Origin: Pleurocapsa sp. MO_226.B13
GTDB lineage: Bacteria; Cyanobacteriota; Cyanobacteriia; Cyanobacteriales; Xenococcaceae
Reading direction: 5' to 3'
NCBI GenBank assembly: GCA_030064795.1
Contig: JASJEI010000194.1
Coordinates: 1-12,946 of the forward strand
Length of the DNA: 12,946 nucleotides
Shown here: one piece after another, positions 1,578 through 12,675 of the stretch
How positions within the stretch are numbered: position 1 is the first letter of the stretch
Layout: every line of letters begins with the position of its first letter
The notes under the pieces: model-generated
Seen by the model: the letters and a program-made list of their open reading frames with translations, nothing else
Databases searched by the model: none
Told to the model about the DNA's origin: nothing
Program-made: the position numbers and the translations under genes

Positions 1578-4130
1578 TTAGGCTCGATGCAATTTATCTA
1601 AGGCGATCGCTGTTTCGGTGTTGGTAAAAGTTTTGGCGACTGAATGTTCTTGATATTCTTCTAAAGTAAAGGAATCTACCTGAATTGCATCATTGCGAGC
1701 AGTTTCTGCTTGGGTTAGTAGTTCTACTTCATCTAAACTTATAATTCCTGCTTCTAAAGCATCGCGAATTAAGGTAACTGGTTTTGCTTGAGGTAATTGA
1801 CCTAAAATGCTGGCAGTCTTAATTTTCTTGAGAATGAATTCTGATTCCGATGATAGTCTGAAAGCTCGTTCTAGTCTTCCTAAAGCTTCGTCTGGATCGC
1901 TAGGAACATAGATATCCGCAGTTAGATTGTCTCTGGCAACCCCTGAAGTTTGCATTATCTGAGCAATTTTACTGCCCAGTTTATCTGCTGGCATCATTCC
2001 AATCGGATTGAACCGCCACCAAGCTGCTACGATGCTCAACAATGGTACGGACATATTATTAAATATACCAACAAATCCCTGTTGTATTTGGGCAAAAGCA
2101 TACTGTATCGACCAATGAACTAAAGGAAGATCGTCTGAGTTACGTCCTTCGGCTTCAAAACGGCGTAAAGTAGCAGTGGCTAAATACATCCAGGAAAGAA
2201 TGTCGGCAAATCTACCTGTAAGTTTTTCCTGCCGTTTGAGACTGCCTCCATACCTAATCAAAGCCAAATCAGTTAAGAAAGCAAAGGTAGCCGATGCCCA
2301 AGCTAACTTACGATAATACCTGGCAGTTGCCCCCGATACGGGCGAAGGAACTAGATAACCACGAGACAGACTGAGTAAGACGGTGCGCAAAAAATTACGA
2401 ACGATCGAACCGAGATGCTGCCAAAAGACGCGATCGAAGGCTTGGATATCAGATTTATTTAAAGCCTCGATTTCTTTATAGACATAGGGATGAGAACGAA
2501 TTGCCCCCTGTCCGAAGATAATCATGGTACGAGTGAGAATATTCGCTCCTTCGACAGTGATGGGAATCGGTGTAGCACTATAAATATTTGCCAGTAAGTT
2601 TCTTTCACCGCGACAAATTCCCGCACCGCCCATAATATCCATGCCATCGTTAATAATTTGACGGGACAGTTCGGTAAAGTTATATTTCGCGATCGCCGAA
2701 ATTACCGCAGGTTGTTCGCCTCGATCTACTGCGCCAACGGTATATAACCTTGCTGCTTCCATCAGATAAGTTAATCCGCCAATTCTAGCCAAAGGTTCTT
2801 CAATTCCCTCGAAACGACCGATATTTAGTCCAAATTGCCTTCTAACTCTGGCATAAGCCCCCGTAACCCTAGTGACAAATTTAGCGATACCCGTACAGGT
2901 AGCAGGAAAACTGATTCCCCGTCCCGCAGCCAAAGACTGCATCAACATTTTCCAACCCTGTCCCGCTTGTTCTATACCACCGATAATTTGGTCTACCGAA
3001 ACAACTACATCTTTGCCAAGAGTAGGAGAATTATAAAAAGGTACGCTCATCGGATCGTGTCGGCGATCGATCGTTACCCCTGGGGTATCAGTATGAATCA
3101 AGGCACAGGTAATACCGACATCTTCCCCCTTACCCAAAAGATTATCTGGATCGCGGAGTCTAAACGCCAGTCCCATCAAAGTCGCGATCGTCGCTAGGGT
3201 AATATAGCGTTTCTCCCAATTTAGACGCAGATATAACTTACCATCATCGCCCTTGAATACTACTCCGTTGGAGACAATACTACCTGCATCCGAACCAGCA
3301 TTGGGTTCTGTTAGAGCAAAGCAAGGAATTTCTTCACCCGTTGCCAGTCGGGGTAAATAATAATCTTTTTGTGCCTGGGTTCCATAGCGTAATAATAATT
3401 TAGCTGGCCCTAGAGAGTTGGTTACGCCTACGGTGGCGGTGTGAGTAAAAGAACGAGATGCCAGCTTAGTCATCACCGTACTATAAGCCAGGTTAGAAAA
3501 TCCCAATCCACCATATTCAGTCGGAATCATCATGCCAAAAAATCGCTCTCGCCTCAAATAGTCCCAAACTTCAGGAGGTAAATCCTTACGAGAATGAATT
3601 TCCCAGTCAGTCGCCATCCGACAGACTGTTTCTACCTGATTGTCGAGGAAGGAACGGATTTGTTGTAGGGGACGGGGCGTATAAACTGAGGAGGAAACCT
3701 CCTCAGACAGCCCCTCCGTTTCGCGAACCGCCCTTACCGATTGTGATTTTTGGGGTATCAATGGATAGGGTTCGTTGAGGAGGCGTTGGAATTTGGGTTG
3801 GCCAGAGAAGAATTCACCGTCTACCCAGACGTTTCCTGCTTCAATTGCTTCTCGTTCGGTGTCGGAAATTTTAGGTAAAAGTTTGAGACGAGCGACTGCT
3901 TTAACGATATAAGCTGTAATTAATCTTTGACGCAGTTGGGGAAGATTGAAAACTAAGGCAATAATACCAAAGATAATCCACCCCCAAAGTGGTACTTGCA
4001 ACAGTCCTAAAATTGCAGCAGCATACAGCGACCACAACCACAGAGGAACGCCAAGGTAGCCAAAACAGACCAAGAAAAACAAAAACAGGGCAAGATAAAT
4101 ACTAAAAGTAGATTCAACAAGATTAATCAT
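1578..4130 (-). CDS. fadE: Membrane-anchored long acyl-CoA dehydrogenase, FadE type
   Basis: FAD-dependent acyl-CoA dehydrogenase that makes the trans-2-enoyl-CoA in the first oxidative step of beta-oxidation. At 850 residues it is close to E. coli FadE (814) and far longer than ordinary 380-residue family members. Two hydrophobic segments at about residues 7-30 and 33-62 anchor it to a membrane. The catalytic region holds FALTEPNAGSDAGS (271-284) and TVEGANILTRTMIIFGQGAI (525-544), where Glu527 aligns with the presumed catalytic base. A FadE-type C-terminal extension follows (LPLVHWSIQYA, about 668-678). The ATG at 4128-4130 has an AGGAG at 4138-4142, spaced 7 bases. Residues about 126-152 have no counterpart in E. 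coli FadE as I recall it and are encoded by a palindromic repeat. A divergent GNAT gene lies directly upstream, so fadE probably needs its own promoter or long read-through from fadA. An ETF partner is expected but is not in the window. Confidence 0.95.
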   Translation of the reverse strand: MINLVESTFSIYLALFLFFLVCFGYLGVPLWLWSLYAAAILGLLQVPLWGWIIFGIIALVFNLPQLRQRLITAYIVKAVARLKLLPKISDTEREAIEAGNVWVDGEFFSGQPKFQRLLNEPYPLIPQKSQSVRAVRETEGLSEEVSSSVYTPRPLQQIRSFLDNQVETVCRMATDWEIHSRKDLPPEVWDYLRRERFFGMMIPTEYGGLGFSNLAYSTVMTKLASRSFTHTATVGVTNSLGPAKLLLRYGTQAQKDYYLPRLATGEEIPCFALTEPNAGSDAGSIVSNGVVFKGDDGKLYLRLNWEKRYITLATIATLMGLAFRLRDPDNLLGKGEDVGITCALIHTDTPGVTIDRRHDPMSVPFYNSPTLGKDVVVSVDQIIGGIEQAGQGWKMLMQSLAAGRGISFPATCTGIAKFVTRVTGAYARVRRQFGLNIGRFEGIEEPLARIGGLTYLMEAARLYTVGAVDRGEQPAVISAIAKYNFTELSRQIINDGMDIMGGAGICRGERNLLANIYSATPIPITVEGANILTRTMIIFGQGAIRSHPYVYKEIEALNKSDIQAFDRVFWQHLGSIVRNFLRTVLLSLSRGYLVPSPVSGATARYYRKLAWASATFAFLTDLALIRYGGSLKRQEKLTGRFADILSWMYLATATLRRFEAEGRNSDDLPLVHWSIQYAFAQIQQGFVGIFNNMSVPLLSIVAAWWRFNPIGMMPADKLGSKIAQIMQTSGVARDNLTADIYVPSDPDEALGRLERAFRLSSESEFILKKIKTASILGQLPQAKPVTLIRDALEAGIISLDEVELLTQAETARNDAIQVDSFTLEEYQEHSVAKTFTNTETAIALDKLHRA
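3677..3757 (-). repeat. Palindromic repeat element inserted in frame in fadE
   Basis: Between the FadE N-terminal part and the dehydrogenase domain lies a low-complexity stretch (RAVRETEGLSEEVSSSV) that E. coli FadE lacks. Its DNA holds a perfect 9-bp hairpin, CTGAGGAGG-aaa-CCTCCTCAG, at 3686-3706, followed by a second short palindrome, TTCGCGAA, at 3720-3727. The reading frame stays open through it. This looks like a small interspersed repeat that landed in a surface linker. The exact boundaries are estimated from the protein comparison and may be off by several bases. Confidence 0.55.
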
Positions 4131-4192
4131 ATTCTCTCTCCTACAAATTTAAAATAGTGATAGAAGCTTGTCAGAACAGGGTTGGTATTGAA

Positions 4193-4720
4193 ATGAACGG
4201 GATTAAAACCAAAAATCTAATTCTTGTTCCTTGCGATTTGATACATTTTGAGGCAATCTTGCAAGACCGACACGAATTGGAATTGTTATTGGATATTGTC
4301 ATGTCTGAGAATTGGACGGAGTTTCCCGAAGCTATAGAATATGCTTACGAATATCTGAAGGCTAATCCCTCTGCTTTTGGTTGGTGGGCTTATCTATTTG
4401 TTCATTGCCAAGATAGAGTTTTAATTGGTTGGGGGGGATTTAAGGGACAGGCTAATGAATCGGGCGTAGTAGAAATTGGCTATGAGATTATTCCCGACTA
4501 CAGAAATCGAGGTTTAGCCACAGAAGCAGCACGAGGACTAGTAGATTATGCTTTTTCTCATTCACAGGTTAAATTTATTGATGCCCAGACTCTTCCCAAG
4601 GCTAACGCTTCAACTAGAGTATTAGAGAAAATTGGGCTGAGATATATGGAAACAATCCAAGATCCCGAACAGGGAGCAATTTGGTATTGGCGTTTAGCTA
4701 GAGAAGACGATCGCAAATAG
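4193..4720 (+). CDS. GNAT-family N-acetyltransferase, RimJ/RimL-like
   Basis: A GNAT acetyltransferase that would move an acetyl group from acetyl-CoA to an amino group; the acceptor is unknown. The acetyl-CoA-binding motif is YEIIPDYRNRGLATEAARG (residues 97-115, with the RNRGLA loop), and NASTRVLEKIGLRYME (138-153) is the usual following helix. I chose the ATG at 4193 (175 residues) because the protein then opens MNGIKTKNLILVP, matching the standard start of this subfamily; AGGG lies 11 bases upstream. A GTG at 4157 would add 12 residues that do not resemble the family. The gene runs against the fad genes: its stop is 21 bases from the end of fadA, and its start is 62 bases from the fadE start. 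It splits the pathway cluster and shows no evident link to it. A transcript reading from fadA into fadE would be antisense to it. Confidence 0.9.
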   Translation: MNGIKTKNLILVPCDLIHFEAILQDRHELELLLDIVMSENWTEFPEAIEYAYEYLKANPSAFGWWAYLFVHCQDRVLIGWGGFKGQANESGVVEIGYEIIPDYRNRGLATEAARGLVDYAFSHSQVKFIDAQTLPKANASTRVLEKIGLRYMETIQDPEQGAIWYWRLAREDDRK

Positions 4721-4741
4721 CTTCAGGTTATTGATATCGAT

Positions 4742-5923
4742 CTACAACATCAAATTTTCAAATACCCCCGCAGCCCCCATACCACCGCCAATACACATGG
4801 TTATCATGCCGTAGCGGATACCGCGTTTTTGCATTTCATGGAGTAAAGTAGCGGTTAGTTTTGCCCCCGTACAGCCTAAAGGATGTCCTAGAGCGATCGC
4901 GCCACCATTAACATTGACAATCTCTTCATCGAGTCCGAGTTTGCGAATCACTGCTAGAGACTGTCCTGCAAAAGCTTCGTTAAGCTCAATTAAGCCAATA
5001 TCGTTGAGAGTTAAGCCGACTTGTTCGAGTACTTTGGGTACGGCTGTAACAGGGCCGATACCCATAATTTCTGGTGCTACTCCAGCCACTGCATAACCAA
5101 GGAGTTTGCCCATCGGTTTGACTCTGAACTGGTTGAGCATTTTCATACTCATAATTACTGCTGCTGCTGCACCGTCGGACATCTGGGAGGAGTTACCTGC
5201 TGTCACCATACCTTGAGCGTGAAATACGGGTTTTAATTTAGCCAAGGCTGACATACTGGTATCGCTACGCGGCCCTTCATCGACCTCGAATACTCGTTCT
5301 ACTGTTTGAGGCTGACCATCGACGTAGATAGTTTCTTTAAATTTAACTGGGACAATTTCTGCTTTAAAACGCTCCCTGGCTATGGCAGCTAAAGCCCGAT
5401 GGTGCGATCGCAAGGCAAACTGGTCTTGATCGTGTCGAGAGATATGATATTCTTTAGCGACACTTTCGGCAGTAAGTCCCATAGTGATATAGGTTTGGGG
5501 AGAAGTATTTATCAACTCTGGGTTGGGAGAAAGATAATTACCGCCCATGGGCATCAAACTCATCGATTCCGCCCCACCAGCGACGATAACCTCTGCCTGT
5601 CCCGTCATAATTGCCTGGGATGCCATAGCGATCGTTTGTAAACCAGAGGCACAAAAACGATTAACGGTACATCCAGGTACAGAATCGGGCAACCCCGCCC
5701 GTTGAGCCACAACCCTACCTAAATTAAATCCCTGTTCCCCTTCAGGAAAAGCACAACCCATAATGACATCATCTATCTGTGCGGGGTCTAATTCGGGAAT
5801 TTTGGCGATCGCACCTTTAACCGCAGTTGCCCCCAGATCGTCGGGACGCACGTTACGCAATGTTCCTCGCGGTGCTTTACCAATCGCAGTTCTGACACTG
5901 CTGACTATATATGCTTCTTTCAT
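4742..5923 (-). CDS. fadA: Acetyl-CoA acyltransferase (3-ketoacyl-CoA thiolase), FadA type
   Basis: Thiolase that cleaves 3-ketoacyl-CoA with CoA to release acetyl-CoA, the last step of beta-oxidation. Its 393 residues are full length. The acyl-accepting cysteine is Cys91 in [16 protein letters not shown] (315-319), His347 in [10 protein letters not shown] and the second catalytic Cys377 in CIGGGMG are all present, so the enzyme should be active. Sequence alone does not exclude a biosynthetic acetyl-CoA C-acetyltransferase, but the fad neighbours support the degradative role. The ATG at 5921-5923 starts the standard [16 protein letters not shown]. No Shine-Dalgarno is visible: only an A+T-rich 11-base spacer separates the start from a heptamer array (5935 onward), which may have replaced the original leader. 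An S23-family gene and two repeat arrays, about 650 bases in all, separate it from fadB. Confidence 0.95.
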
Positions 5924-5934
5924 CTTTTTATTTA

Positions 5935-6025
5935 GAGTTCGGAATTCGGAGTTCGGAATTCGGAGTTATTTAATTCACAACTCCTAACTACGAACTACTA
6001 ACTACGAACTACTAACTCCTAACTC
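5935..6025. repeat. Tandem heptamer and octamer/nonamer array A upstream of fadA
   Basis: Units GAGTTCG, GAATTCG, GAGTTCG, GAATTCG and GAGTTAT lie head to tail at 5935-5969. A spacer ending TTCAC follows, then AACTCCTAACTACGAACTA and further ACTAACTACGA-type units to about 6025. The second half is roughly the reverse complement of the first (GGAGTT versus AACTCC), so the array can fold. The array resembles the short tandemly repeated heptamers known in cyanobacterial genomes. It supplies the last four codons (RVRS) and the stop of the overlapping S23-family gene. Confidence 0.8.
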
Positions 6026-6380
6026 TTTGTTTTATTTTTTTAGTTATGACAACTAAAATTTTGATAATCTCTTCGCATTCTTGTCTGAGTAATTTAATTC
6101 TTTGTTCTTTTATCAAATCCGCTTGTACCAAAATAATTAGCCAATACTCAGTCTCTCTAGCTTCTTTAAGTGCAATTTCTAATTTGTGCAGAAAATCCCG
6201 ATCTGATTGAGCCGACTGAGCTTCACGAACGTTTGCCCCGATAGAAGTACCACTTCTAATTAGTTGCTTGTATAAAACCCTTGTTACACCATTTTGTTCT
6301 GCCAAAAACTTACAAAGCTTAACAACTCTAACCGCAAAACTCAGCGTTCGATCTTGAATTTTCTGCTTCTTATCACTCAT
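6012..6380 (-). CDS. Four-helix-bundle protein of the S23 / 23S rRNA intervening-sequence family
   Basis: This 122-residue protein has the family length and hallmark sequence: RSGTSIGANVREAQSAQSD (residues 42-60), then FLHKLEIALKEARETEYWL (63-81). The remainder is predicted helical with a basic tail. Members were first found encoded in intervening sequences of 23S rRNA genes and are now known widely as stand-alone genes. Avd, the accessory protein of diversity-generating retroelements, shares the fold. Molecular function is mostly unknown; a nucleic-acid-binding role is suggested. The ATG at 6378-6380 has no good Shine-Dalgarno. Here the gene sits between fadB and fadA, and two related heptamer arrays, sharing two near-identical stretches that total about 38 bp, flank it. 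The downstream array encodes its last residues and stop. No reverse transcriptase or variable repeat is visible, so this is not a retroelement in this window. Confidence 0.85.
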   Translation of the reverse strand: MSDKKQKIQDRTLSFAVRVVKLCKFLAEQNGVTRVLYKQLIRSGTSIGANVREAQSAQSDRDFLHKLEIALKEARETEYWLIILVQADLIKEQRIKLLRQECEEIIKILVVITKKIKQRVRS

Positions 6381-6435
6381 AACTAATTAACTATTCATAG
6401 ACATCTCCAAAATAATTTTTCCCAAAAGTAAGTTT

Positions 6436-6573
6436 GGAGTTCGTGCAGGGGCGCATTCCCTTGCGTCTTACGCCGACGCGGGGTCGCCCCTGAATTCGGA
6501 ATTCGGAGTTATTCACAACTCCTAACTACGAACTATATGCGAAGCGGTATCCTTTAGGACTAACTCCGAACTC
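6436..6573. repeat. Heptamer array B between the S23 gene and fadB, with two nested insertions
   Basis: GAGTTCG (6437-6443) and GAATTCG, GAATTCG, GAGTTAT (6492-6512) are heptamers of the same family as array A. They lead into TTCACAACTCC and AACTACGAACT (6512-6534) and end with CTAACTCCGAACTC (6560-6573). The two ends, GAGTTCG and CGAACTC, are inverted copies. A 48-bp hairpin element (6444-6491) sits exactly between two heptamers. A 24-bp unit (6535-6558, containing GCGAAGCGGTATCC) splits the second half and is flanked by ACT on both sides. The stretch 6498-6535 nearly repeats 5955-5997 of array A. Confidence 0.8.
6444..6491. repeat. 48-bp hairpin element nested inside heptamer array B
   Basis: CAGGGGCG (6446-6453) pairs perfectly with CGCCCCTG (6485-6492). 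Inside the loop a second stem, GCGTC (6463-6467) with GACGC (6475-6479), can form. The composition is markedly G+C-richer than the flanks. The element starts and stops at heptamer boundaries, which suggests insertion into a pre-existing array. No T-run follows on either strand, so it is not a typical intrinsic terminator. Confidence 0.55.
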
Positions 6574-6579
6574 AAAAAA

Positions 6580-8922
6580 CTAATTCCGCAGTGGTTTCTT
6601 GGTTTTCAGCAAATGTGCGATCCGTTTTTGGGTTTTCTCTTCTTTGAGTAACGGTACAAAGGATTCTCGCTCTAGTTGCAGTAGATAATCCTCACTAACT
6701 AGAGAAGGTGCTGAGAGTTCGCCACCTGTAAGCACGTATGCCAAACGGTTGGCGAGAAAGCGATCGTATTCGGAGATATATCCCCCTTGTTGGAAGACAT
6801 AAGCACCGTGTTCTAAGGCCGCTCTACCTGGTTGACCTAAAACCATAATCGAGTCACGATTGGGTATGGGTGCATAACCTTCGAGATCGAGACGGATGAC
6901 TTCTTGTTTTGCTACGTATAAACGGCGATCGCTATTCATGACAATCTTGGCGGTGGGAGACAAGAAACCGAGTTCTAAAGCTTCATCGGCACTGTTAGAG
7001 ACTTTTGCCATCCCCACAGTTTCAAAGACTCGTTGCAAGAAGGGTTGAATCTGAGTCGCTGTTTCTTTGGCTGCCCCTTCTGCTGCCCAGGCTGCCATCC
7101 GCATAATGCCCCCCGCTCCAGGAATCAAGCCCACACTCAGTTCTACTAAACCGATATAGCTTTCGGCTGCTGCCACGACTTGAGGACAAGCCATCGCTAA
7201 TTCACAACCGCCACCAAGTGCTAAACCCCTAACAGCAGCGACAATTGGTTTGGGGAAATAATGAATTCTCTGTAGGGTTTTTTGGAATTGTAGAATAACG
7301 GCGATCGCATCTAACTGATTTGTTTCAGCTATTGTTTCTATTTCCCTGAGATTAGCACCACCACAGAAGTTAACATCGCCATTACCGATTACCATGCCTC
7401 GGTATTCGTCATCTTCTTCGAGGATGTTTAAAACTTCGATCAGCCCTGCCATGACTTTAAAGCTTAGGGTATTACCTTTGGAGCGAAACTCGTATAGAAT
7501 AACTCCATCTCCTAAATCGAGTAATGCAGCCTCTTCGTTTTGCCAGAGAATATTCTCTGAATTAGATTTAATTACATCGAGGTTGATTTCATCTTGGGGA
7601 ATATTTAAAGCAACATACTCATGACTGGGTGTATAAACTCGATCTTGATGATAGAATCCACTAACGTGATGGTGTTTAATCATCGTTTGTACCCAATCGG
7701 CTAAAGGTATATCTGCTACCTGCATATCGGTGACAACAGTTTTAAAGCCCAAGACATCCCAAATTTCAAACGGCCCTAATTCCCAACCAAATCCCCAACG
7801 CATGGCGCGATCGATTTCTGCGGGACTATCGGTAATTTCGGGAATTCGATAGGAACTGTAACTAAGTATCGATAGCATCAGCTGGCGGAAGAATTGACCC
7901 GCACGTCCTTTATCTCGATACAAAGCCCGCAATCGTTCTGGTAGTTCTAATCCTTTGAGAGATTTAAGATCGCCTAAGTCTATTGGTTTAGCTGGTTCGT
8001 AAGCAAAGGTTTTGGGATTTAAGGAGAGAATTTTACCCCGTTCTTTTTTATAAAAACCCTGACCTGTTTTTGCTCCTAACGTTCCCGTTTCAACTAACTT
8101 GTTTAACAAAGCTGGTACGCGGAAAATTTCGCGACTTTCATCTTTGGGAATTGCTGGATAAAGATTTTTCGCTACATAAACTAGGGTATCCAATCCCACT
8201 AAATCGGCAGTGCGAAAAGTTCCCGATTTTGGTCTTCCGACTAAAGTTCCCGTCAGAGTATCGACTTCTTCGATGGTATAGCCTTCATCGGTAAAGGCTT
8301 TAATCCCCAACATAGTGGCGTAAATCCCAATGCGATTGGCAATAAAGTTGGGCGTATCTTTTGCCACCACTACCCCTTTTCCTAAATGCAGACGAGCAAA
8401 CCATTCCAATCTCAGTAAGATCTCAGTGTCTGTATCTTCAGTCGGAATTAGTTCTAATAATTTAAGATAGCGAGGGGGATTAAAGAAATGAGTACCTAAA
8501 AAACGCTGGCGAAAAGATTGAGGTAGTCCCCGTGCAATTTCATTGACGGGCAAACCACTAGTATTGGTAGAAACGATCGCACCTTGACTGACAACCCCTT
8601 CAATTCTTGCCATTAACTGCTGTTTGATCGCTAAATTTTCGACCACAGCCTCAATTACCCAGTCTACTCCAGTCAGGCGGTCTAAATGTTCGTCAAAATT
8701 GCCCAGAGTAACCCGACGGGCTGTTTTTTCGGTGAAAAGAATCGGCGGTTTCAGCTTGACCGCTTTTTGCCATCCAGCCTCTACAATTGCATTTTTATTT
8801 TCTTCTGGGGCGGGTATATCTAATAAATGAACTGTCAATCCTGCATTAGCCAGGTGGGCTGCAATCTGCGAACCCATAACTCCCGCACCTAATACGGCAG
8901 CAGTTCGGAATGGTTTAAACAT
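6580..8922 (-). CDS. fadB: Fused 3-hydroxyacyl-CoA dehydrogenase / enoyl-CoA hydratase, FadN/FadB type
   Basis: A bifunctional beta-oxidation enzyme that hydrates trans-2-enoyl-CoA and oxidises the L-3-hydroxyacyl-CoA with NAD+. Its 780 residues have the dehydrogenase first and the hydratase last. This is the order in Bacillus FadN and the reverse of E. coli FadB. The NAD-binding loop is LGAGVMGSQIA (11-21). The catalytic pair is His145 (GTHFFNPP) and Glu157, twelve residues apart as in FadB. The dehydrogenase C-terminal domain follows (GAKTGQGFYKK, 283-293). In the hydratase part the oxyanion-hole segments are CGGANL (520-525) and LALGGGCELAMAC (567-579), and both catalytic acids are present, Glu574 and Glu594 (VELSVGLIPGAGG). 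Both halves should be active. The ATG at 8920-8922 is preceded by GGGAGG (8931-8936), spaced 8 bases. Only 20 bases separate it from the fadD stop, so the two genes are almost certainly cotranscribed. Confidence 0.95.
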   Translation of the reverse strand: MFKPFRTAAVLGAGVMGSQIAAHLANAGLTVHLLDIPAPEENKNAIVEAGWQKAVKLKPPILFTEKTARRVTLGNFDEHLDRLTGVDWVIEAVVENLAIKQQLMARIEGVVSQGAIVSTNTSGLPVNEIARGLPQSFRQRFLGTHFFNPPRYLKLLELIPTEDTDTEILLRLEWFARLHLGKGVVVAKDTPNFIANRIGIYATMLGIKAFTDEGYTIEEVDTLTGTLVGRPKSGTFRTADLVGLDTLVYVAKNLYPAIPKDESREIFRVPALLNKLVETGTLGAKTGQGFYKKERGKILSLNPKTFAYEPAKPIDLGDLKSLKGLELPERLRALYRDKGRAGQFFRQLMLSILSYSSYRIPEITDSPAEIDRAMRWGFGWELGPFEIWDVLGFKTVVTDMQVADIPLADWVQTMIKHHHVSGFYHQDRVYTPSHEYVALNIPQDEINLDVIKSNSENILWQNEEAALLDLGDGVILYEFRSKGNTLSFKVMAGLIEVLNILEEDDEYRGMVIGNGDVNFCGGANLREIETIAETNQLDAIAVILQFQKTLQRIHYFPKPIVAAVRGLALGGGCELAMACPQVVAAAESYIGLVELSVGLIPGAGGIMRMAAWAAEGAAKETATQIQPFLQRVFETVGMAKVSNSADEALELGFLSPTAKIVMNSDRRLYVAKQEVIRLDLEGYAPIPNRDSIMVLGQPGRAALEHGAYVFQQGGYISEYDRFLANRLAYVLTGGELSAPSLVSEDYLLQLERESFVPLLKEEKTQKRIAHLLKTKKPLRN

Positions 8923-8942
8923 CTAGTTTTCCTCCCTTTGTT

Positions 8943-11303
8943 TCACTCTAATTCTTCTTTGATTTGAGGGTTTTGAGTTTGGAGTTGAGAATTATCGTCC
9001 TTACTAATAAATGGAATTCGGAATTTTGAAGATTTATCCTGTTCGTCAATCCCCATCTTTTGCCAGAAATCGAGATTCTGACGTTGAAAGTAATCTTGAA
9101 CAACTCGCCAGGATAGAAGTTTCAACCGAGCGATTAGCAATTTAAAACCTGATAACTCCCAACTCTGGACTCGGAATTTTTGTACGAGCGAACGGCCGTT
9201 CGCGGTTATCGACGTTGTTTCTTCTCCGTACAAAGCATCTATTTCTGCTGCAAAGATTTTATTTACTTGAGAGCGATCGATCTTGCCATTTGCCTGTAAT
9301 AGTTCCTCCGCTACGAAGAAACTGGGATCGAGCAAGCGAAATCCTTTAACTCTCGACCATTGAGGAAGTTGTTGGTTAGCTTCATCGACTACGGTTTGAT
9401 AAAGAGCGATAATTTCTGGCTGTTGCAGCAACTCGGCAATAGGTAGATATAAATTTAAAGCTCTAGCACGTTCCCGCAACTGTTCTAAATCTGGGAAAAT
9501 TAACATTCCACAGAACTTTTTCTGCCTGCCTACTACCACCGCCTGTCTTACTAGCGACGACTGTTTGACCCGCTCCTCTAGAGGTTGAGGGGTGACATAT
9601 TTACCAGTGGAAAGTTTAAATAGTTCTTTTTTATTACCAGTAATAGTCAGGAAACCTTCTGAGGTAAATTCTCCTAAGTCTCCCGTATGCAACCATCCTT
9701 CTCGATCGATGACTGCCTCAGTCGCCTCTGGATTTTTATAATAGCCCTGCATCACGTAGGGAGCTTTAACTAAGATTTCTCCATCAGGGGCGATCGCCAT
9801 TTTTACCCCAGGAATGGGCAAGCCTACTGTCCCCGCACGGTTGAAGCTATCTCGATTGCAGCAAATCACTGAACTGGTTTCGGTTAAGCCATAGCCTTGC
9901 AGGACTGTCATCCCCGCAGCACTAAATATGTTGGCAAGTTCGGCTGTTAATGGTGCGCCACCACTAATAAAGTATTTGAGCCTTCCACCAAAAGGTTTTC
10001 GCCATTGGGAAAAGACCAGCCAATCGGCTAACTTAAGTTGTAGGGCATAGGATAACCCCATTGGTTGCCCCAACTCATAATTTTGAGCTAGTTTTAATGC
10101 CCAATTAAAAATTGTTTTTTTAATTCCTCTAAGCTTGCTACCGCGATCGAGAATCTTTTGATAACTTTTTTCTAACAGTCTCGGTACGGTAGCGACCAGA
10201 GTCGGTCGGACTGTTTTAAAATCTCTAACTGCTCGATTGGGAGTAGAAAAATAGATGTTATGTCCGTAATTAAGATGACCGTAAATTAACGCCCGCGCAA
10301 AAATATGGGTTAGGGGTAAAAAAGACAGTACTGTCTCGGTTTTTCCTGGTTTTAAGTCGGGAATACTTTTAAAAGTCGTCAGAATATCGGCGGTAATATT
10401 TTCGTGACTTAACATCACCCCCTTGGGCTGTCCTGTATCTCCCGCTATATAAACTATGGTTGCCAAGTCTTGAGGGGAAATAGGCGATCTTGATTGCTCT
10501 TTTTGCTCTCGATCCTTTAACTCTTTACCTCTAGCCCGAACCTCATCTAAAGAAAAGAGTCGAACGCATTGAGGTAACTCAGGACAAGATAGCCTTTTCC
10601 GTCCCTGACAAAGCAACATGGGAACACACAAACAAGTTTGGGGGGAGTTCGGAGTTAGGAGTTTGTAGTTTGTAGTTTCTTGCTTAATATCTAAGGAACT
10701 AGATGTCGAATCCCAACCTTTTTCTTTCGAGCTATTAACTCCGAATTCTGAATTTCTAACTCCGAACTCATGAACGCCACAAGTTAATAGTTGGGTGCGT
10801 TTTTCTTCCCAGTCATCGGGAATATCGACGACAATTACTGTCTGGAGATCGGGAGTGTCGCAAAGATAGGGAATTACTTGAGCCAACAGATCTAGGTTGG
10901 AAACAATTAATGCTTTCGCTGCTGAATGACGCAGAATAAAAGCAATATTTTCTAGTGTCTGAGTTAAATCGATTGGCACATTAACTAATCCCGCTTGCAG
11001 AGTCCCAAAATCTGCAATACAGAAATTAAGATCGCTATGCATTAAAAATGCTACCTTTTCCTTTGGTTCTAATTCCTCTAGCAGTCCCCAAGCTAACTCT
11101 TCAGCAGCAGTTAGTAATTCTCGATGGGATAGAGACTGCCAGTTATTTGCTTGCCATTGATTGAATGCGCGATCGCTATGATTGCGATTACCCGACGGGT
11201 ACGCTGCGCGATCGCCAGCTTCCTCCAACAGCGAAGGCAAAGTCCGACCCAAAACTGGCAGTTCTGGAAGATTAAGGTCTTCAATCTTATTTAAATAAAA
11301 CAT
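8943..11303 (-). CDS. fadD: Long-chain acyl-CoA synthetase (AMP-forming), FadD type
   Basis: An ANL-superfamily ligase that activates free fatty acids to acyl-CoA with ATP; first gene of the fad cluster. Numbering is from the ATG at 11301-11303 (786 residues). A TTG two codons earlier is possible but less likely. Motifs in order: P-loop YIAGDTGQPKGVMLSH (285-300), GYGLTETSS (470-478), GWLHTGDLGEF (536-546), and NGKIDR (672-677) with the adenylation lysine Lys674. The P-loop is atypical: the usual TSGTTG reads IAGDTG. The protein is 100-200 residues longer than common FadD proteins. The excess maps partly to repeat-derived insertions at about residues 30-46 and 179-220 and to a C-terminal tail after about 695 that also contains repeat-like DNA. 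The adenylation core looks complete, so activity is plausible, but the insertions and the Asp in the P-loop leave some doubt. Confidence 0.92.
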   Translation of the reverse strand: MFYLNKIEDLNLPELPVLGRTLPSLLEEAGDRAAYPSGNRNHSDRAFNQWQANNWQSLSHRELLTAAEELAWGLLEELEPKEKVAFLMHSDLNFCIADFGTLQAGLVNVPIDLTQTLENIAFILRHSAAKALIVSNLDLLAQVIPYLCDTPDLQTVIVVDIPDDWEEKRTQLLTCGVHEFGVRNSEFGVNSSKEKGWDSTSSSLDIKQETTNYKLLTPNSPQTCLCVPMLLCQGRKRLSCPELPQCVRLFSLDEVRARGKELKDREQKEQSRSPISPQDLATIVYIAGDTGQPKGVMLSHENITADILTTFKSIPDLKPGKTETVLSFLPLTHIFARALIYGHLNYGHNIYFSTPNRAVRDFKTVRPTLVATVPRLLEKSYQKILDRGSKLRGIKKTIFNWALKLAQNYELGQPMGLSYALQLKLADWLVFSQWRKPFGGRLKYFISGGAPLTAELANIFSAAGMTVLQGYGLTETSSVICCNRDSFNRAGTVGLPIPGVKMAIAPDGEILVKAPYVMQGYYKNPEATEAVIDREGWLHTGDLGEFTSEGFLTITGNKKELFKLSTGKYVTPQPLEERVKQSSLVRQAVVVGRQKKFCGMLIFPDLEQLRERARALNLYLPIAELLQQPEIIALYQTVVDEANQQLPQWSRVKGFRLLDPSFFVAEELLQANGKIDRSQVNKIFAAEIDALYGEETTSITANGRSLVQKFRVQSWELSGFKLLIARLKLLSWRVVQDYFQRQNLDFWQKMGIDEQDKSSKFRIPFISKDDNSQLQTQNPQIKEELE
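9188..9203. repeat. Perfect 16-bp palindrome in the fadD C-terminal tail
   Basis: GCGAACGGCCGTTCGC is identical to its reverse complement. It lies in the tail-encoding part of fadD (about residues 701-706), beyond the last conserved motif. Heptamer-like DNA lies on both sides: CGGAATTT near 9172-9179 and GGAATTCGGAATT at 9013-9025. It looks like an interspersed palindromic repeat tolerated in a dispensable tail. Confidence 0.5.
10645..10769. repeat. 125-bp element with 14-bp terminal inverted repeats inside fadD
   Basis: GAGTTCGGAGTTAG at 10645-10658 is the exact reverse complement of CTAACTCCGAACTC at 10756-10769. Heptamer-like units continue inwards from both ends (GTTTGTAGTTTGTAG; AACTCCGAATTCTGAA). 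The right end is identical over 14 bases to the end of array B at 6560-6573. It is read in frame as about residues 179-220, a polar segment (EFGVRNSEFGV onward) between two parts of the adenylation domain. No transposase is present, so it is MITE-like in form only. Confidence 0.65.
11166..11215. repeat. 11-bp direct repeat bounding a 13-codon insertion near the fadD start
   Basis: TGCGCGATCGC occurs at 11166-11176 and again at 11205-11215, 39 bases apart, each containing GCGATCGC. The 39-bp period equals 13 codons, so the frame is kept and DRA is read twice around AYPSGNRNHS. The intervening DNA has the short palindrome ACCCGACGGGT. This looks like duplication or insertion at a HIP1 site. Confidence 0.6.
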
Positions 11304-12210: not shown

Positions 12211-12675
12211 GTGAATATTACTGTGTCTGGTTTTATCTCAATTATTTTCAGCCTAATAATTATTTTAGTCAGCAGTTCGATCGCGATTAATCCTGCTTTA
12301 GCTATTGGTCTTGAGAATGGTCAACTATCTCCTTGTCCGAGTTCTCCCAATTGTGTCGTCAGCCAAAACGGAGATGCGGATCATGAAATTGAAGCGATAC
12401 CATTTACAAGCGATCGCGCTACTGCCAAAGAAACTCTGTTAAAAGTATTATCGGTTGTTCCCCGCACCGAAGTTGTCGAACAAACTGATAACTATATCCA
12501 CGCTGAATCTACTAGCCGTATTTTTAAGTTTGTCGATGATGTCGAGTTTTATTTCCCTGAAGATGAAAATACAATTCAGGTTAGATCCGCCTCGCGGGTA
12601 GGAGAGTCCGATCTGGGAGTAAACCGCCGACGCATCGAACAGATTCGCTTAGCTATGGAAGATTTGGGTGTTTAA
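12211..12675 (+). CDS. Secreted or lumenal DUF1499-family protein
   Basis: The 154-residue protein begins with a hydrophobic segment (residues 7-25) and a likely signal-peptidase site after ALA (29-31), so it is probably exported to the periplasm or thylakoid lumen. The mature part starts with the family hallmark, LSPCPSSPNCVVSQ (39-52). YIHAESTSRIFKFVDDVEFY (94-113) and IQVRSASRVGESDLGVNRRR (121-140) follow, all typical of DUF1499. Function is unknown for this family, which is common in cyanobacteria and proteobacteria. There is no ATG: an in-frame TAG at 12205 limits the start to GTG 12211 or GTG 12223. The second has GAGAG eleven bases upstream; the first has none properly spaced. The signal peptide lacks the usual basic residues with either start. 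The gene stands alone, with its own promoter and terminator. Confidence 0.85.
   Translation: MNITVSGFISIIFSLIIILVSSSIAINPALAIGLENGQLSPCPSSPNCVVSQNGDADHEIEAIPFTSDRATAKETLLKVLSVVPRTEVVEQTDNYIHAESTSRIFKFVDDVEFYFPEDENTIQVRSASRVGESDLGVNRRRIEQIRLAMEDLGV

Follow-up and report, generated by a model that had tools for sequence, protein, structure and literature searches.

In Bacillus, the beta-oxidation genes fadN, fadA and fadE stand together as fadNAE, an order that is shared by many loci of the Bacilli. In Escherichia coli, which also possesses genes of the electron-transfer flavoprotein (ETF) type and served as one of our controls, fadE stands apart from the other fad genes. Cyanobacteria have been stated to lack beta-oxidation (PMC7379126 and PMC6123915). 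Genes of this kind are, nevertheless, already published for Chlorogloeopsis. Namely, Ho and Bryant (2019) describe four neighbouring beta-oxidation genes of C. fritschii PCC 9212, UYEDRAFT_05553-05556, whose expression rises approximately 10-fold in far-red light (PMC6424891); their passages on these genes mention neither ETF nor the FadD motif. A 2024 paper on another strain of this species says that the canonical pathway seems to be absent in cyanobacteria (PMC10830646). Here, we analyze a stretch of 12,946 nucleotides from Pleurocapsa sp. MO_226.B13 (contig JASJEI010000194.1; hereafter the window) in which, unlike in E. coli, genes of the FadD, FadN, FadA and FadE types lie in one minus-strand cluster (open reading frames between 1578 and 11309, each with Pfam matches above cut-off). 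A preliminary description of this DNA had recognized the cluster and had taken it for a complete classical beta-oxidation pathway with catalytic residues in place in all four proteins. The main interest of the locus, however, is in what is missing, i.e. the ATP motif of FadD and ETF.

Results

A search of genomes with an alignment of cyanobacterial FadN was used to take the best 80 loci, 16 of which are cyanobacterial (L001-L016). The order fadD-fadN-fadA-fadE holds in all 16 as far as the contigs reach, and all four genes were matched in 14 of them; in L012 and L015, fadE is missing at the end of the contig. Of 290 Cyanobacteriia drawn, 57 have FadN and 59 have FadE (both at E<=1e-100; the FadN and FadE draws are taken as the same genomes since the printed handles agree). 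Every one of the 57 genomes with FadN also has FadE, no more than 10 kb away in 51 cases and on a separate contig in 6. In other words, approximately one in five of the cyanobacterial species sampled has the cluster, a wider occurrence of the pathway than the preliminary description had supposed. The FadN of C. fritschii (P0073) is 70% identical to that of the window, from which we infer that UYEDRAFT_05553-05556 (PMC6424891) are probably this same cluster.

Outside the cyanobacteria, the nearest of the 80 loci by FadN identity belong to Rhodothermota (54-59%) and to a Gemmatimonadetes bin (57%), as compared with 41-44% for FadN of the Bacilli. Three of the Rhodothermota loci have the identical gene order and the same type of FadE, while the other two end sooner; in Roseithermus (L019) and Rhodothermus sp. 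(L017), which carry the same four genes in the same order, identity is 58-59% for FadN and 60-61% for FadE. The FadE of the Bacilli, in contrast, is of another family and only approximately 23-30% identical over part of the protein. A Bacillus-type origin of the cluster is thus rejected on account of the family of FadE and the identity of FadN, and of the likeness to the Bacillus arrangement that had been pointed out earlier, it is the order fadN-fadA-fadE that stands. In quick trees, the cyanobacterial sequences form one clade both for FadE (24 rows, omitting L056 and L057 at less than 700 residues; Shimodaira-Hasegawa-like approximate likelihood ratio, SH-aLRT, 99) and for FadN (50 rows, namely the window and 49 of L001-L050, with L012 omitted for the same reason and L051-L080 not taken; SH-aLRT 100). 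What is more, the HIP1 palindrome GCGATCGC occurs 14 times in the window versus 0.12 expected, and the closest named proteins and loci are those of Pleurocapsales/Xenococcaceae, which agrees with the earlier reading of the HIP1 sites as a mark of cyanobacterial DNA. Synteny, trees and occurrence in 57 of the 290 genomes together support the conclusion that the cluster belongs to a genuine cyanobacterial lineage.

The core enzymes of the pathway, i.e. a dehydrogenase, a hydratase/3-hydroxyacyl-CoA dehydrogenase and a thiolase, have their catalytic residues in place. FadE (1578-4130, minus strand, 850 residues; PF09317, PF02771, PF02770 and PF00441) is an acyl-CoA dehydrogenase of the E. coli type, with a C-terminal ACDH_C domain and 46% identity with its E. 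coli counterpart across 816 columns, nearly end to end and including the N- and C-terminal extensions. It scores 1008 bits against NF007000 (cut-off 600), thereby passing for the E. coli-type subfamily, and reaches neither NF038187 (FadE_coli; 868 bits, cut-off 1300) nor the Bacillus FadE family NF058590 (109 bits, cut-off 600). Its Glu527 (codon 2550-2552) aligns with the glutamate that is the catalytic base in acyl-CoA dehydrogenases and is invariant across the 23 FadE rows aligned. A predicted model (mean predicted local distance difference test, pLDDT, 82; predicted template modelling score 0.85) finds its closest folds among acyl-CoA dehydrogenases such as 2z1q, VLCAD and ACAD9. A hydropathy scan shows at least one hydrophobic N-terminal stretch in 23 of 23 FadE rows; in the window, residues 1-66 (3933-4130, minus strand; model helices 2-26, 30-43, 48-62 and 64-82) probably anchor the protein in the membrane.

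FadN (6580-8922, minus strand, 780 residues) matches Pfam and NCBIfam profiles with the dehydrogenase half first and the hydratase half second, and is homologous over its full length to FadN of the Bacilli. It carries GAGVMG at 12-17, His145/Glu157 and Glu574/Glu594, and it passes none of the NCBIfam subfamily cut-offs shown (658 bits against NF052272, cut-off 999). The thiolase FadA (4742-5923, minus strand, 393 residues; Cys91, His347, Cys377) does pass its NCBIfam subfamily cut-off. Its nucleophilic cysteine is present in all 16 cyanobacterial loci, and the histidine and second cysteine in 15, L015 ending before them.

It is in FadD, an adenylate-forming (ANL) protein, that the earlier claim of catalytic residues in all four proteins fails. 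The gene (8943-11303 on the minus strand with ATG, giving 786 residues, or to 11309 with TTG, giving 788) reads YIAGDTGQPKG at the P-loop (10419-10451, minus strand, as derived from residue numbers), where the canonical motif is YTSGTTGxPKG. The canonical motif is absent from the window and from all 15 cyanobacterial loci readable there (L012 is not), and is present in every one of the 9 cluster FadDs aligned from outside the cyanobacteria, those of Rhodothermota included. Across 131 cyanobacterial FadD rows (11 loci and the 120 closest homologues, among them the window itself; the rows were picked by similarity and are not independent) it does not occur once. Namely, the threonine has become isoleucine in 123 rows and the serine alanine or proline in 130, and in motif A8 the aspartate has become glycine in 127 and the arginine is substituted in all 131. 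The A7 TGD, on the other hand, is retained in 131 rows and the A5 glutamate in 127. A suspected loss of the A10 lysine was dropped: a loose pattern caught 112 cyanobacterial rows (it missed 19), and lysine stands in 51 of these, the window among them, so that the position is only variable. Assembly error as a cause of the motif loss was likewise rejected, the same being seen in Pleurocapsa PCC 7319 and PCC 7327, Fischerella PCC 9605 and Pseudanabaena PCC 6802. No NCBIfam ligase cut-off was reached among the 25 families shown of 91 (best score 231 bits versus 950), and the predicted model retains the ANL fold. Since both the P-loop and the A8 Asp-Arg pair are lost, the cluster FadD is probably no longer an ATP-dependent acyl-CoA ligase.

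The genomes concerned do, however, possess another protein of this kind. Paralogues with the canonical P-loop, which we take to be the acyl-acyl carrier protein (acyl-ACP) synthetase Aas of the Slr1609 type, were read in 13 of the 16 cluster-bearing cyanobacterial genomes, all 13 with the motif intact; G008 has only pieces on separate contigs, and none is listed for G003 and G009. They are ANL proteins that share 28-32% identity with the cluster FadD of Rhodothermus, and unlike the cluster FadD of cyanobacteria they keep the loop and form a separate clade. In a quick FadD tree with the motif columns masked (16 cyanobacterial rows without the motif, 18 outside rows with it, and 13 Aas-type rows), the loss maps to one event, at the root of the cyanobacterial clade. 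All 18 non-cyanobacterial cluster FadDs retained for this tree have the canonical loop, whereas the Aas-type rows were preselected by motif, so that their loop status counts from the direct reading only. Left out of the tree were all loci with a FadD match weaker than E 1e-30, as well as L012, L023 and L066, where FadD is short or split; L066 itself has the canonical loop. The ratio of nonsynonymous to synonymous substitution rates (dN/dS) of FadD is 0.11-0.22 in 6 pairs, which overlap and of which the lowest has a dS above 3; a further 2 of the 8 pairs were saturated. With values well below one, FadD is under purifying selection and therefore constrained rather than dead, at least in the lineages compared.

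Side by side with this, some loci show a peculiar structure at the very same place. The fadD genes of L005 and L008 (Prochloraceae/Leptolyngbyaceae) both carry inserts of approximately 34 residues exactly within the P-loop, and a stretch resembling these inserts precedes the stop in fadD of Acaryochloris sp. 'Moss Beach', whose cluster lies on plasmid pMB02 (L132 9949-19400); this fadD is annotated as two open reading frames parting at the P-loop. As fadN of this plasmid is also split between frames, the copy seems to be decaying.

As for the second missing part, the ETF profile PF01012 matched nothing in the 16 cyanobacterial genomes that supplied L001-L016, nor did ETF turn up in any of the 59 genomes of the 290 Cyanobacteriia that bear FadE. 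The search does find ETF elsewhere: 16 of the 290 have ETF above cut-off, none of them FadE-bearing, and 10 of the 14 control genomes matched. Two weak matches below cut-off (G371 and G478, both without FadE) were not counted. A first, phylum-wide count of 138 in 291 was set aside and replaced by the class draw because most of its matches lie in genomes of approximately 2 Mb, presumably non-photosynthetic relatives. The anti-correlation between FadN and ETF is weak (Fisher p 0.048), and we build no argument on it, using the absence alone. In the phylum of Roseithermus, 60 of the 61 genomes drawn have ETF by the identical search, and the lone exception is Roseithermus sacchariphilus itself (L019/G018), a complete chromosome that carries FadE. 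ETF is also present in the genome of Rhodothermus sp. (L017), which has the cluster. As no ETF was found in the FadE-bearing genomes, the cyanobacterial FadE is probably reoxidized by something else.

Concerning the surroundings of the cluster, an alpha/beta hydrolase lies within approximately 1.5 kb in 10 of the 16 loci by BLAST clustering (of the 8 of these that were scanned, 7 match Hydrolase_4 and 1 only DUF1400) and also adjoins the Acaryochloris plasmid copy; none is found among the open reading frames of the window. The window's arrangement is a cluster rather than a single tight operon, as the run from fadE to fadD is broken by two other genes. One of these encodes a GNAT acetyltransferase (Pfam) on the plus strand between fadE and fadA (4157-4720), outside the conserved cluster; no GNAT match above 80 bits was printed across the 80 loci compared. 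The other, between fadA and fadN, encodes a four-helix-bundle protein of the 23S rRNA IVP type (6012-6380, minus strand; PF05635, TIGR02436), whose 3' end is overlapped by cyanobacterial-looking heptad repeats (5935-6024) lying between this gene and fadA. Similar heptads make up an in-frame inverted element within fadD (10645-10769, minus strand; arms of 40 nucleotides, 73% complementary), and the insert encoded there, residues 179-220, has pLDDT below 50 in the predicted model. Beyond fadE lie an open reading frame of the LysE exporter type (1245-1565; its match is confined to positions 5-89 of a profile of 193) and, adjoining it, a LysR regulator (219-1109). Upstream of fadD, after approximately 900 bases without a listed open reading frame of at least 80 residues, comes a DUF1499 protein (12211-12675).

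Discussion

We consider it probable, though far from secure, that fadD-fadN-fadA-fadE is an old and conserved cyanobacterial operon for lipid breakdown, often placed beside an alpha/beta hydrolase, that works without ETF and with an altered FadD. According to this reading, FadE would oxidize acyl-CoA, FadN would hydrate the enoyl-CoA and then oxidize the product with formation of NADH, and FadA would release acetyl-CoA. Because no ETF was found, the FADH2 of FadE would be reoxidized without it, and a membrane-anchored FadE would most likely pass its electrons to the plastoquinone pool. Quinone is our first choice of acceptor since the N-terminus of FadE looks membrane-bound and since the literature on E. 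coli leaves this option open; namely, how FadE of this type passes on its electrons is called unsettled (PMC11495604 and PMC9329746). The acyl-CoA itself may be made by the Aas-type paralogue, which is intact, or else arise through transfer of the chain from acyl-ACP, with FadD presumably retained in its altered role. A more specific version, in which FadD moves chains from the acyl-ACP route to CoA without an ATP step of its own and the membrane-bound FadE feeds the plastoquinone pool, strikes us as a rather doubtful proposition.

Classical beta-oxidation, which is what the preliminary description had claimed in full, calls for an ATP-dependent acyl-CoA synthetase with a canonical P-loop, a motif that the cluster FadD has lost, and for available ETF, which the relatives do not show; what is more, isocitrate lyase was found in only 1 of the 290 Cyanobacteriia at a strict E<=1e-50, a threshold that divergent lyases could escape and at which 4 of the 14 controls matched. 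One could still argue that the pathway is an ordinary complete one, in which FadD is a ligase tolerating its changed P-loop and FadE uses a soluble carrier that has not been recognized. The retained ANL fold, the A5 and A7 motifs, the purifying selection and the fact that GxTGxPKG is kept in many FadD rows, that of the window included, all speak for such an explanation, but the Thr-Ser pair is lost in nearly every row, two loci carry long inserts inside the loop and the Acaryochloris gene is split there, so that we regard it as unlikely. Alternatively, FadE could be an acyl-CoA oxidase passing electrons to O2 with formation of H2O2, which would require neither ETF nor quinone. The host is oxygenic, and high expression of E. 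coli FadE increases H2O2 production (PMC11495604). However, the hydrophobic N-terminus seen in every FadE scanned would not be needed for oxidation by O2, and in fold the protein comes nearest to dehydrogenases, VLCAD and ACAD9 among them. Neither point is decisive, and we hold this possibility to be quite improbable.

It is also conceivable that the genes serve a specialized pathway, such as lipid remodelling or the shortening of acyl chains destined for natural products, rather than energy-yielding breakdown. The near absence of isocitrate lyase and the altered FadD fit such a role; yet FadN and FadE co-occur tightly with an intact thiolase between them, the cluster has lipase-like neighbours, and what are probably the same genes are induced by far-red light in C. 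fritschii (PMC6424891), all of which makes this alternative less likely still. As to the idea that the assembly is contaminated or recently took up foreign DNA here, it is refuted by isolates such as Xenococcus PCC 7305 and Fischerella PCC 7521, which carry the same cluster; the density of HIP1 and the single cyanobacterial clade in the FadE, FadN and FadD trees speak against it as well, and its probability is practically negligible.

That said, a number of observations weigh against an ETF-independent breakdown operon with an altered FadD, which we nonetheless prefer. The model of FadE is uncertain just around Glu527, with pLDDT below 50 for residues 522-533. FadD retains the A5, A7 and GKY(V/I) motifs and, in the window, the A10 lysine, so that some ligase activity may be left in it, and its dN/dS exceeds that of its neighbours in 5 of the 6 pairs, even if it is well under one. 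The 120 nearest FadD rows were selected precisely by their resemblance to the FadD of the window, and the Acaryochloris plasmid copy has both fadD and fadN broken. Moreover, 11 of the 12 FadE-bearing genomes of the Roseithermus phylum possess ETF, meaning that this FadE family is not inherently ETF-free. The absence of ETF is established for relatives of the source genome rather than for Pleurocapsa sp. MO_226.B13 itself, and in a class draw that was requested at 90% completeness, with per-genome values unprinted. Finally, that FadE reduces quinone directly is yet to be proven for the E. coli enzyme itself (PMC11495604 and PMC9329746).

What would become of the acetyl-CoA? Net growth on it through the glyoxylate shunt looks to be rare, and because isocitrate lyase was found in only one genome, acetyl-CoA would more likely feed respiration or re-synthesis than net growth.

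Judging by titles and the beginnings of abstracts, we found no paper on a cyanobacterial beta-oxidation cluster that is free of ETF or devoid of the P-loop. The statements that cyanobacteria lack beta-oxidation (PMC7379126 and PMC6123915) contrast with a cluster found in about one of every five species sampled. The FadE-bearing genomes without ETF matches offer a natural test case for electron transfer from FadE of the E. coli type, while an ANL protein that is conserved without its P-loop, in genomes where an intact paralogue also occurs, makes a good candidate for a novel function. If FadE does feed the plastoquinone pool, lipid breakdown would deliver its electrons to the very pool that photosynthesis and respiration have in common.

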